Assembly (NCBI GenBank): GCA_017481925.1
Contig: JAFUOK010000049.1
Location: 1 to 48,748, forward strand
Length of the DNA stretch: 48,748 bases
Direction: 5' to 3'
Source of the DNA: Alistipes sp.
Lineage (GTDB): Bacteria > Bacteroidota > Bacteroidia > Bacteroidales > Rikenellaceae
Within the stretch, counting starts at the first letter, position 1. Each line of letters starts with the position of its first letter. The translations under genes and the position numbers were made by a program. Below the pieces are notes generated by a model. That model had not been told where the DNA came from. It saw nothing but the letters and a program-made list of their open reading frames with translations, and searched no databases. Shown piece after piece: positions 14,509-40,531 of this stretch.

Positions 14509-15498
14509 TCAGCACATTTCCACTTCGCGTGGGGGGGGGTCGCAGGCGCTCTCCAACGCACCAACTCTTTTGCCCTCGTAATCAAACAGCAGACACTCCT
14601 CACCTATCCACGCACGTGTGCAACCGCTATGATAGTCGTACTCAACACTATCATATATGGGCAGAATAACAAACTCGCCCTCGCGGTTAATCAGCCCCAT
14701 ACCCGACTCGCTCTCAACCTCGGCACGACCCTCATAAAAGTCGCCGACCCAGCGGAAGAGGGGTTCTATAACTACTTGATTTTCACTATCGACAAAGCCC
14801 CAACCCGAAGGCTCCTCAACAGCTGCCAGACCTTCGTGCAGCGACCTCACATAGAGATGATTATCGAGCGCAGGCGCCACATTGTATGGCATTGCCTCCA
14901 CATCTCGCACTGCGGCATTGGCCTTCAATAGAATCTTCTCGCGCAGAGCATCAAACGCCTCATCGTCGCCGCCTGCGCCCTCGGTGGCATAGTACCACCG
15001 CACAAGGCGTGCCTCACCCCTATCAGTGAGGATGATATTCTCCTCACGCACAGCATTATGCGAGAGGTTGGCACAGAGCAATGCCCCTTGTAATTCGTTT
15101 ATAGCCTCGACCAATCTCTGCGCATCATTCGAATCTGCCACGGCTGCCAGCGCATCCGAGAACGGCTCGCCCACGGGGAGTGGCTCACGCAGTATATCGC
15201 ACTCGGCCTCACGGCCAGCGCTATCGGCATAGTGCATCTCCGATCGCAGAATCTCCAGGCGAGGAACGTAAGAGGTAATGAGATGACGATGCAGAGGAAC
15301 GAGTCGCTCGACACGTCTTAAAGAAGAGAGCGTCAGAGGCATATAGACCAGATAATGCTCAGCACCATACTCCACCTCAGCCTCGGCAAAGTAGGTCGAA
15401 CGGCGAACACTCTCGCCCACCCAACGCAGATGCGCCATACGAGTAAAGCCCTTCTGTGGGGCACTCAAAGCCTCCCGAAACGATGATATTGCAACCAT
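14509..15498 (-). CDS. Pseudokinase-like protein with C-terminal WG repeats
   Basis: A 329-residue protein. The middle segment aligns by position with a kinase catalytic loop, but the key residues are gone. HGDLKPENI of the sister protein reads HNAVREENI here (147-155), so the catalytic Asp is Ala and the Lys is Arg, while the Asn is kept; the DFG equivalent reads VRW. No Gly-rich loop or beta-3 Lys is evident near EHYLVYMPL. Residues 231-310 hold two WG-type repeats (GWGFVDSENQVVIEPLF and GMGLINREGEFVILPIYD). It follows the vWA gene by one base (TAG, T, ATG). Assignment as a pseudokinase rests on the alignment with the neighbouring kinase and is inference; the WG repeats are clear. Confidence 0.65.
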   Translation of the reverse strand: MVAISSFREALSAPQKGFTRMAHLRWVGESVRRSTYFAEAEVEYGAEHYLVYMPLTLSSLRRVERLVPLHRHLITSYVPRLEILRSEMHYADSAGREAECDILREPLPVGEPFSDALAAVADSNDAQRLVEAINELQGALLCANLSHNAVREENIILTDRGEARLVRWYYATEGAGGDDEAFDALREKILLKANAAVRDVEAMPYNVAPALDNHLYVRSLHEGLAAVEEPSGWGFVDSENQVVIEPLFRWVGDFYEGRAEVESESGMGLINREGEFVILPIYDSVEYDYHSGCTRAWIGEECLLFDYEGKRVGALESACDPPPREVEMC

Positions 15499-15499
15499 A

Positions 15500-16354
15500 C
15501 TACTCCATGCGTGTTATGCTTCGAGAGCCTATGTTTATAATCGAGAGCAACTCCACAATAGTGGCGTTATAGCCCATACCATAATATGGTGGCACAGCAC
15601 CAGCACCCTTCAATGAGTGGATAGCCTCCGTAAATGCCTCGGGCATAATGCTCGAACACTCCGCCAACGTGCGTGCGTGACGCGACGCTGCGAGAAGTTC
15701 ATCGGCCATAGGGAAGATTATCGAGGGTAAAGCGTCAGACGATGTGATGTGTATATTCAGCAGAAGCACCTGCCCATCCTCGGTAGCCACGGCCCGCAGC
15801 TGCGAGCAGATGTCGAGCAACTCGGCGTCGGTACAGTCCGAAGCCTCGCCATCGGTGATATTTATTACTATGGGCGGGAAACTCGCCCTATTCTCTTCGC
15901 GAGCGCACCACTCCTGCAACATATCGCGAACACGGAGCATCGCCTCATACATAGGCGTAGTGCCTTCGGCTTTGGGTTCTATCCACTGCTCTACGCTATG
16001 CTCCACCATAGCGGCCGTGCCGTCGGGCATCATCTCCTCAAAGGCCACTCGGCTCAATCGAGGAGCACGACGAGACAACCGACTAATGGAAGAAAAACCA
16101 TCCTCCGAGGTGAGCATCTCCACCCCATCGCCACCATAGCCTACGATGGCAACGTCGTAGTAGTCGCGTACGCCATCCGTGCGACGTGAGCGGTCCACCA
16201 ACTCGGTCACAAGAGCATTGGCCGTGAAGGCCACAGCCTCGGCCTTGGTCATCACCATACGACCAAAGCGCACTCGGCCCTGCATCGACGCCGAGCGATC
16301 GAGCATCAGGACAAAGGCGGTACGGTGACGGCGTGTAATCTCTTGTGTGTACAT
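15500..16354 (-). CDS. vWA-domain protein with intact MIDAS (TerY-like)
   Basis: A 284-residue von Willebrand A domain protein. The metal-ion site is complete: DRSAS (D19, S21, S23), the Thr in GTTPMYEA (132-133), and the Asp in INITDGEASD (168). The fold begins directly after a ten-residue basic start, with no signal peptide, so it is cytosolic. The short, nearly single-domain form and its linkage to a kinase match the TerY class. A TATCTTTG box lies 20 bases upstream, giving this gene and its downstream pseudokinase their own start inside the cassette. The C-terminus has a Gly-rich segment (GAGAVPPYYGMGYN). Confidence 0.85.
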   Translation of the reverse strand: MYTQEITRRHRTAFVLMLDRSASMQGRVRFGRMVMTKAEAVAFTANALVTELVDRSRRTDGVRDYYDVAIVGYGGDGVEMLTSEDGFSSISRLSRRAPRLSRVAFEEMMPDGTAAMVEHSVEQWIEPKAEGTTPMYEAMLRVRDMLQEWCAREENRASFPPIVINITDGEASDCTDAELLDICSQLRAVATEDGQVLLLNIHITSSDALPSIIFPMADELLAASRHARTLAECSSIMPEAFTEAIHSLKGAGAVPPYYGMGYNATIVELLSIINIGSRSITRME

Positions 16355-16373
16355 TGCGTGGAAGTTTGTTCTA

Positions 16374-16381
16374 CAAAGATA
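16374..16381 (-). promoter_or_regulatory. Candidate internal -7 box for the vWA gene
   Basis: The minus strand reads TATCTTTG, an exact TAnnTTTG match, in the 42-base gap between the kinase gene and the vWA gene. The implied leader is short, about 13 bases. Confidence 0.65.
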
Positions 16382-16396
16382 ATTTTTTTCTCAAAA

Positions 16397-17536
16397 TTAT
16401 TCAACAACAACCCTGATTATTCGCTCCTCGCCATCCGCTGTGCGCACCCGTGTGCATCCATCACGCAGCGGGCCTACATTCTCCCCTCGGCTAAATGAGC
16501 GCAGAACCACGCCATCCTGCAAGCGCACAAAATGGCGATAAGCACCCAGCTCCATCAGCGCTACGCCCTCCGAGAGACCTATACCCGAAGTGTATAGCGG
16601 TGGCAAAATCCACTTCTCACCAAGCAGCACACCCCAACGGCCTTTATCATTCATCTCCAGCTCGGCACCCTCCAAGTCGGTCATAGTCATAGCCTTGCAG
16701 GAAAATACTTCTGCCAAATCATACAGCCGCACATACTGCGAGCCGAGCATCATTGCCACCTGATACTCGCGTGCCATACCTCGGCGTGCAAACTCCTCGA
16801 CAATCGTGTGCAGAGCAACCGTCAGCGCACGACCGTCACTGATTAGTGATGCAGGCATAAACGGTGGTTCACGATGCTGGCGATAGTGCTCCATCACATC
16901 GGGACGTAGAGCCGCGAGGTGCAACAAAGTGGAGATAAATGCAACGGAATAGTCGTCCAAATGCTTATCGTAGAAGGCCGTATCTCGCCGAGGATGCTGA
17001 TATGCCGCCGTGCCGATCTCAACAGCCCGCATACCCTTGAACATAGGCACAAACGCCGCATCCCAATCTATGGCCACCATCGAACCATCCTCGCGAACGA
17101 TGATATTCTCGGGTTTCAGGTCGCCGTGCGCCCGCTCCGAGCGAAGAATCTCACCTGCCATACGGTCAAACTCCCGTGCCAGAGAAGAAAACTCCTCCTC
17201 CGTTGTGACCTCGCACAGCACCTCGTCGAGCGAACGCCCCTCAACATACTCCGCCAGCAGGCAATCGACCCAATGGTAGCGACCCGCAAAATCGACCACA
17301 CACAACTCCTTCGGGCGGAACGCCTCGCCGTAGATTGCAGGGAGACGGTCACTTGGTCGGGTGTAGCATTTGAGCATATAGCGGCGGCCCTGATACCTCA
17401 CGGGTAGCGACACGGCGGCATTGCCCGTGACGTAACGGGGTCGGCCATCCTGCATCTCGGGCTCAATGCCCTGCAGGGTGCGCCACACGGTGTAGGGGAA
17501 GGCTACGGCATCGATAATATTGGCAATGGTAAGCAT
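16397..17536 (-). CDS. Serine/threonine-type protein kinase with C-terminal WG-like repeat
   Basis: A 379-residue protein kinase-like enzyme, probably active. The ATP-site Lys is seen in YMLKCY (K56), the catalytic loop as HGDLKPENI (D139, N144), and the metal-binding DFG equivalent as DWD (157-159). The activation region and a helical lobe follow. The last 90 residues hold a WG-type repeat (GRWGVLLGEKWILPPLY) like that of the pseudokinase two genes downstream. The ATG at 17536 is chosen over an in-frame TTG at 17554 that lies inside the slyD terminator. Homologues in this group phosphorylate vWA or partner proteins; the substrate here is unknown. Confidence 0.8.
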   Translation of the reverse strand: MLTIANIIDAVAFPYTVWRTLQGIEPEMQDGRPRYVTGNAAVSLPVRYQGRRYMLKCYTRPSDRLPAIYGEAFRPKELCVVDFAGRYHWVDCLLAEYVEGRSLDEVLCEVTTEEEFSSLAREFDRMAGEILRSERAHGDLKPENIIVREDGSMVAIDWDAAFVPMFKGMRAVEIGTAAYQHPRRDTAFYDKHLDDYSVAFISTLLHLAALRPDVMEHYRQHREPPFMPASLISDGRALTVALHTIVEEFARRGMAREYQVAMMLGSQYVRLYDLAEVFSCKAMTMTDLEGAELEMNDKGRWGVLLGEKWILPPLYTSGIGLSEGVALMELGAYRHFVRLQDGVVLRSFSRGENVGPLRDGCTRVRTADGEERIIRVVVE

Positions 17537-40449: not shown

Positions 40450-40458
40450 CTTGTGTTG

Positions 40459-40531
40459 AGCGGAAAACGAGACTCGAACTCGCGACCCCAACCTTGGCAA
40501 GGTTGTGCTCTACCAACTGAGCTATTTCCGC
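40459..40531 (-). tRNA. tRNA-Gly (anticodon GCC)
   Basis: The minus strand folds as a 73-base cloverleaf: acceptor GCGGAAA with TTTCCGC, D-arm containing AGCTCAGTTGGTAGAGC, anticodon loop CTTGCCAAG giving anticodon GCC, variable loop, and T-arm GCGAG-TTCGAGT-CTCGT. The discriminator base is T (U73), as usual for glycine. The CCA end is not encoded. It has its own -7 box upstream at 40589-40596 and a terminator downstream at 40422-40449. Confidence 0.97.

Follow-up and report, generated by a model that had tools for sequence, protein, structure and literature searches.

The 48,748-nt stretch of Alistipes sp. DNA analysed here (GenBank assembly GCA_017481925.1, contig JAFUOK010000049.1, positions 1 to 48,748; hereafter the window) belongs to a 1.9 Mb assembly that is 84% complete, and carries on its minus strand a cassette of three genes which, together with their products, we call K (kinase), Y (TerY-type von Willebrand factor A, vWA, protein) and PK (WG-tailed pseudokinase). 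K (16397..17536, 379 aa) encodes a Ser/Thr-type protein kinase with intact catalytic residues and what reads as a degenerate WG-type tail, Y (15500..16354, 284 aa) a vWA protein with a complete metal ion-dependent adhesion site (MIDAS), and PK (14509..15498, 329 aa) a predicted pseudokinase with C-terminal WG repeats. The open reading frames (ORFs), strand and coordinates are all as given in an initial annotation of this DNA, which had described three tight minus-strand genes; the intergenic gaps are 42 nt between K and Y and 1 nt between Y and PK. Throughout, the family is Rikenellaceae, to which the window organism belongs, and G- and L-numbers are genome and locus labels. Since the cassette is conserved across Rikenellaceae it is not a chance arrangement.

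The residues from which K had been read as an active-looking kinase (K56, D139, N144 and D157-W-D159) are present and conserved, as D139, N144 and D157 are each found in 35/35 aligned relatives and position 56 is Lys in 30/35 and Arg in 5/35. K matches the Pfam Pkinase model (E 1.2e-5, under the Pfam cut-off) and the PADLOC STK_OB model (E 3.4e-19), the latter over residues 97-212, within the kinase region and with the tail outside the match. On this basis K is a TerY-P-type Ser/Thr kinase with intact catalytic residues and predicted activity. It has neither the zinc ribbon nor the OB-fold C-terminus of TerY-P kinases, its tail being of WG type by profile. The suggestion that both kinase-like proteins end in WG repeats holds clearly for PK and only in part for K: the K of the window has no Pfam WG match at E up to 1, and its tail reads as a degenerate WG tail because 22/35 relatives match Pfam WG at E up to 0.1 and the K-tail and PK-tail profiles align with each other (E 1.2e-18).

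Y matches the PADLOC TerY model with an E of 3.5e-50 which, together with the STK_OB match of K, bears out the kinship to TerY-P systems that had been proposed for the locus. The metal site, previously noted as complete, is kept in 70-71 of 71 sequences: within the DxSxS...T...D pattern the first Asp and both Ser residues are found in 71/71, the Thr in 70 (Ser in one) and the final Asp in 70 (Asn in one). A relative of Y is present in 164/180 genomes of the same genus and in 227/250 genomes of a Rikenellaceae sample, in contrast to 6/198 genomes of an order sample (including the window's own genome and one other member of the Rikenellaceae) and 6/295 of a class sample (own genome included).

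In PK the positions required for canonical catalysis have been replaced, with A149 at the HRD Asp, R167 at the DFG Asp and Y52 at the beta3 Lys, while the catalytic-loop Asn (N154) is kept; the initial annotation had thus correctly described a third protein that has lost the catalytic Asp and DFG yet retains the Asn. The same holds across 40 PK relatives, where the HRD Asp is never found (0/40; Asn in 29, Ala in 6, Arg in 2, and His, Ser and Phe) and the place of the DFG Asp is taken by Arg in 23, Asn in 11, His in 3, Gly in 1 and Leu in 1, with Asp in a single sequence. The beta3 Lys is retained in 10/40, the catalytic-loop Asn in 35/40, and E87 and D178, which correspond to the aC Glu and aF Asp (the aC, aF and beta3 labels being inferred from the alignment), in 39/40 each. 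Additionally, 10-21 residues separate the DFG place from the aF Asp in PK versus 34-50 in K (34-36 in 32/35), so that the activation segment of PK has been lost. PK members with over-extended or broken ORFs are excluded from these alignments.

The only Pfam matches of PK are to WG repeats (PF14903, E 9.3e-16, 58 bits against a cut-off of 25.6), it has no match to NCBIfam or PADLOC models at E up to 1, and WG_beta_rep matches all 40 relatives at E up to 0.1. The kinase-like lobe ascribed to the third protein is nevertheless apparent at the sequence level once the family is compared as a profile, since the profile of the 40 relatives matches solved kinases, best 2phk (E 4.4e-8), and PK is therefore predicted to have a kinase fold. 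Profile comparison of PK with K gives an E of 1.1e-62 over the full length, 2.1e-42 for the kinase parts (hhalign; PK residues 1-196, 14911..15498 on the minus strand) and 1.2e-18 for the tails, whereas a mismatched control of the PK kinase part against the K tail gives 0.37. The two proteins also have a common N-terminal segment, in which both consensus lines carry TI, P and (F)RTL. These profile matches identify PK as a paralogue of K from which the canonical catalytic motifs have been lost. The constraint has shifted between the paralogues: the WG part of PK, at a mean pairwise identity of 0.38, is more conserved than its kinase-like part (0.25), whereas in K the kinase part (0.40) exceeds the tail (0.30). 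The WG region (residues 230-310, 14569..14811, minus strand) is the most conserved portion of PK, with F254, E256, R258, V261 and G274 invariant in 40/40.

Three other identities or origins were considered for these genes and rejected. PK is not a divergent PP2C, as its profile matches kinases and K. Nor is it a chance WG protein, which was ruled out by a scan of 395 genomes of the phylum with the PK profile: 219 were matched and, among the matches listed outside the own genome, only the G710 kinase extends into the kinase-like part, the rest being WG-only. Spread on mobile DNA was likewise rejected, as PK finds two WG-only matches in phages and Y two cyanobacterial matches of 27-30% identity in plasmids (phages were scanned for PK only and plasmids for Y only).

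A tree of the kinase parts (77 sequences, namely 40 PK, 33 family K and 4 outside kinases; 218 columns, a quick method without bootstraps) places all PK on one side of a single branch with an SH-aLRT support of 100, and all family K on one side of another with 89. Three loci (L095, L099 and L103) are the first to branch among K and, together with L104, form one of the deepest PK branches, the order there being unsettled. The simplest reading is that PK would have arisen by one duplication at or before the base of Rikenellaceae and then descended mostly vertically. The tree does not separate PK, family K and the outside kinases L107 and L180 at their forks, and the source of PK may be K itself or a nearer relative of those outside kinases.

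The genes might have proved rarely co-located in relatives; in 67 family loci (the window plus 66 hand-picked from the listed matches for spread of identity and genera, loci cut by contig ends being kept) PK lies directly behind Y in 63, 61 with an intact ORF and two with an interrupted frame (L045 and L064), upstream of Y in two, and is absent from the stretch in the remaining two. For one of the latter (L075) the same genome has PK on a different contig (L191). K is less tightly placed, just upstream of Y in 38 loci, further upstream in 11, on the opposite strand in 2 and outside the stretch in 16. At one locus with K further away, K and Y are separated by a DUF4954/DUF6819 gene (L061:5382-7115); several other loci with K approximately 3 kb upstream show a similar-sized gap, L061 being the only one in which the gene was identified. 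PK is also retained in genomes where it is unlinked from Y, and 16 such PK genes (L186-L201), inspected by eye, carry Asn in 15 and Arg in 1 at the HRD place, and Arg in 15 and Lys in 1 at the DFG place.

Co-occurrence across the 180 genomes of the genus, in counts that ignore shared ancestry and incomplete assemblies, gives the same picture. On a strict count 155 genomes have Y together with PK, 9 have Y only, none has PK only and 16 have neither, which is tighter than for K and PK (144 with both genes, 13 with K only, 11 with PK only, 12 with neither); on a lenient count that accepts all PK-profile matches, the figures for Y and PK become 162/2/5/11. The strict PK-absent set consists of 13 genomes without a match, eight with weak matches (G221, G246, G268, G270, G334, G361, G364 and G371), G241, G245 and G358, and the unsettled G297. 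When the stretches of five doubtful genomes were read, the matches in G245, G358 and probably G241 turned out to be K itself, and that in G258 a true PK adjoining Y. K was not detected, by single-sequence or full-length profile match, in 11 genomes with Y and PK, of which four (G222, G249, G267 and G366), whose PK match was not read or placed, are retained since no K was found there; over all 23 K-negative genomes the K profile finds only partial matches, in 7. The conserved trio envisaged in the initial annotation is thus real, but its tightest unit is Y-PK, since K is not upstream in 18/67 loci and is undetectable in 12/164 Y-bearing genomes of the genus. Together these data indicate that Y-PK, not K, is the core of the cassette.

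The intergenic sequence points in the same direction. The gap between K and Y contains, 27 nt ahead of the start of Y, TATCTTTG (16374..16381, minus strand), a match to TANNTTTG, which we take to be the Bacteroidetes -7 promoter element. Within 90 nt upstream of Y, TANNTTTG is found at 16/17 loci (L045-L058, L062, L064 and the window), and over all usable loci it is found upstream of Y in 18/61, compared to 1.8 expected from shuffles, while it precedes PK in 1/48 and K in 3/48. Because the element is enriched upstream of Y and not of PK or K, Y-PK looks, at least near the window, like a two-gene unit with a putative promoter of its own downstream of K.

Outside the family the place beside Y mostly belongs to a phosphatase. 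At nine TerY loci outside Rikenellaceae, taken from the order and class samples, the gene adjoining Y is a PP2C by model in 8, either by a TerY-P PP2C profile (L106-L109, three of these four being among the seven rows of the profile) or by the PADLOC PP2C model (L108, L109, L180, L107, L182, L183 and L185); the ninth, L184, has by eye the start of a similar gene that is ended by the stretch boundary. In contrast, the TerY-P-type PP2C profile (seven sequences) matched 0/101 family genomes, own included, a search without a positive genome of its own whose control was a held-out test in which three members were recovered (E 2.5e-37, 3.6e-31 and 4.4e-25), and it matched none of the ORFs of the 67 family loci. 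This agrees with the earlier proposal that a pseudokinase sits in the PP2C place, and answers the accompanying survey question of where any phosphatase lies: beside Y outside the family, with none of TerY-P type found in the 101 family genomes.

The Pfam PP2C_2 model (PF13672) does find proteins in 34/180 genus genomes and none in 146/180, own included, although it is weak for the TerY-P type, with no match to the PP2Cs of L180 and L107 and matches below the cut-off for those of L108 and L109. In all 32 of these 34 genomes that have Y, the PP2C_2 match and Y are on different contigs (places compared by hand), which speaks against a canonical pairing of TerY with PP2C in the nine genomes whose PP2C_2 matches are strong, a reading that was rejected. 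In four strong-match genomes that were read (L130-L133 in G366, G263, G249 and G221, where Y has no adjoining PK), PP2C_2 sits elsewhere in another vWA/kinase set composed of a vWA protein of 234-236 aa, a PP2C_2 protein of 475-496 aa (E 5e-33 to 8e-31) and a kinase-like protein of 833-849 aa. The set may be a second system of vWA protein, PP2C and kinase; the comparison with PADLOC covered the three L130 proteins. At L134, L135 and L136 (G290, G351 and G230) PP2C_2 matches lie near FHA-like and kinase-like genes, the FHA-like genes and the kinase-like gene of L136 being assigned by eye.

Taken together, sequence and gene order suggest that the cassette is very probably derived from TerY-P, with the pseudokinase holding the place of the phosphatase. 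It would descend from a TerY-P phosphorylation switch of kinase, TerY vWA protein and PP2C, in which a kinase of K type was duplicated at or before the base of Rikenellaceae. One copy would have stayed the active-looking K, while the other would have lost its catalytic residues and activation segment and come to lie directly behind Y, in the place that PP2C has in outside relatives, the order of these events not being given by the comparison. How PK acts is a different matter, and we consider it an even call whether PK is a non-catalytic partner of Y that works by binding instead of by phosphatase reset. In such a mechanism the kinase-like part of PK would dock on Y, perhaps at the site used by K because PK and K share their N-terminal segment, the conserved WG repeats would bind a signal or target, K when present would phosphorylate Y or a Y-held target, and PK would hold, shield or present Y, standing in for the phosphatase reset. 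The switch would therefore operate by binding competition and not by a dedicated eraser. More tentatively, and with somewhat more doubt than belief, we propose that the family ancestor replaced the TerY-P PP2C with a degenerate kinase copy, converting a write/erase switch into a write/hold switch by binding, in some species without a recognisable TerY-P kinase.

Several observations weigh against this model. The PK frame is interrupted by one TAG in the kinase-like part in L045 (G247) and L064 (G303), which are among the nearest relatives of the window (K and Y of these loci are open as far as read). PK presence at E up to 1e-5 (167/180 genomes) is inflated and had to be corrected to the strict count, because the PK profile also catches same-genus K ORFs, which reach 109 bits. 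This leaves nine Y-bearing genomes without a clear PK, among which the contig ends at the locus in one (L203, G364), the PK frame is broken in another (L204, G371) and G297 is unsettled; in G358 more than 3 kb behind Y were read with no PK there. At a set of same-genus loci (L118-L122 and L124-L128) Y has neither PK nor K within approximately 1.5 kb, with PK found elsewhere in three of these genomes (G328, G263 and G277). G228, which lacks a detectable K, carries eight weak kinase-part matches, so another kinase may serve there. Finally, an unrelated phosphatase could be resetting the system.

Of the alternative explanations, the one that best survives is that PK serves K as an allosteric activator or scaffold, in the way that STRAD serves LKB1 and HER3 serves HER2, with K-PK as the active pair and Y as substrate or adaptor. 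The common N-terminal and tail segments of the two paralogues and the position of K upstream of Y in 49/67 loci would fit such a pair. However, K goes undetected in 11 genomes that have both Y and PK, including G228 (98% complete, ~10 contigs), and the co-occurrence of PK with Y is tighter than with K, which makes this rather unlikely.

It is also distinctly unlikely that the system is an ordinary reversible TerY-P switch whose phosphatase has been relocated or has given way to an unrelated one, PK being an accessory. The PP2C_2 proteins of the 34 genus genomes, some of them in other kinase/vWA gene sets, are consistent with such a switch, and the phosphatase negatives cover PP2C types, unrelated phosphatase families not having been searched. 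Against this stand the empty TerY-P-type PP2C search of the family, the absence of PF13672 from most genus genomes, weak as this model is for the PP2C type in question, and the separate contigs of PP2C_2 match and Y wherever both occur.

Pseudokinase-fold enzymes with other activities are described in a review of bacterial pseudokinases, as SelO (AMPylation) and SidJ (glutamylation) (PMC12599244). That PK has similarly acquired a new catalytic activity is very doubtful: the retained catalytic-loop Asn and the aC-like Glu and aF-like Asp would be in keeping with a new activity, but the beta3 Lys is kept in a quarter of the relatives and the DFG Asp in one, the activation segment is deleted, and the WG part is better conserved than the kinase-like one. 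Finally, that PK is a decaying by-product of duplication without function, as the interrupted frames of L045 and L064 and an identity below that of Y in 12/12 pairs compared might suggest, is highly improbable given its presence in 155/180 genomes, its retention after relocation, its invariant WG residues, and a ratio of nonsynonymous to synonymous substitution rates (dN/dS) of 0.06-0.60 in the 11 computable of 12 pairs, with many dS values near saturation and over-extended ORFs (L067, L070, L072, L101 and L110) among the pairs.

A TerY-P-derived cassette with PK as a binding partner of Y would be relevant to how the vWA protein, kinase and phosphatase of TerY-P cooperate, which is not settled. 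The species provide a natural series in which K is adjacent, lies elsewhere or goes undetected, or PK has been relocated. Two questions can thereby be put to the test in gut commensals, namely the role of a bacterial pseudokinase and which of its partners TerY cannot do without. A pseudokinase of a single clade, found where other lineages carry a phosphatase gene, is a ready case for asking what dead enzymes do. Elsewhere in the window, between 38000 and 48000, the GC content drops from ~0.53 to 0.43 and then 0.36 in a region with a tRNA-Gly (40458-40531) and PD-(D/E)XK nuclease, DUF3871 and AAA_24 genes, which may be acquired DNA.

Among known pseudokinases PK can be compared with EssB/YukC, for which we know of neither a WG tail nor a TerY partner. 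According to the relevant passages of the review cited above, EssB/YukC of type VII secretion is like PK in that all three motifs are degraded and the activation loop is reduced, and acts as a non-catalytic scaffold, but differs from PK in being a transmembrane part of the secretion system (PMC12599244). The ActPs1-3, GLW, CP1, DYD and DLHK families of the same source are, like PK, bacterial Ser/Thr-type pseudokinases (PMC12599244), and none of the terms Bacteroid-, von Willebrand, vWA, WG repeat, TerY and Rikenell- appears in its main text.

A related arrangement is seen at L180 (genome G710), in another family of the class, where a kinase with WG repeats (9 stretches) likewise lies near TerY. 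This kinase, however, retains HGD and DYD motifs and lies on the opposite strand, a PP2C is present, and there is no pseudokinase in the 18 kb read. At L107:3566-6691 a kinase near TerY and PP2C has a tail that is a BspA-type leucine-rich repeat array and not WG; because this kinase bears leucine-rich repeats where others have WG, the kinase tail may be an exchangeable binding module.

Finally, the TerY-P triad itself is described, in the passages devoted to it, as a TerY vWA protein, a PP2C and a Ser/Thr kinase with a zinc ribbon, or with an OB-fold in stand-alone defence systems (PMC11090510, citing Anantharaman 2012 and Gao 2020). The same three genes are described in Helicobacter (PMC4978471), and the passages of two further papers that mention the triad do so without any pseudokinase (PMC7699616, PMC6471051). 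TerY-P modules are linked there to stress response and phage defence (PMC11090510, PMC7699616); for the present cassette an anti-phage, TerY-P-like character is what model similarity, and only model similarity, suggests. The cassette and the triad share a TerY-type vWA protein that carries a MIDAS, a neighbouring kinase that falls into the same model family, and a third gene directly behind Y. The differences are that no TerY-P PP2C was found and a pseudokinase paralogue of the kinase is in its place, that the tails are WG instead of zinc ribbon or OB-fold, and that the cassette is present in most sampled family genomes. Literature matches on TerY pseudokinases, WG-repeat kinases, TerY-P in Bacteroid- and pseudokinases with Alistipes or von Willebrand held no such arrangement, judged by the titles and abstract starts of the matches listed. 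Because the arrangement was not met there we call it new, a variant that is related to TerY-P and stands beside, not within, the TerY-P systems.

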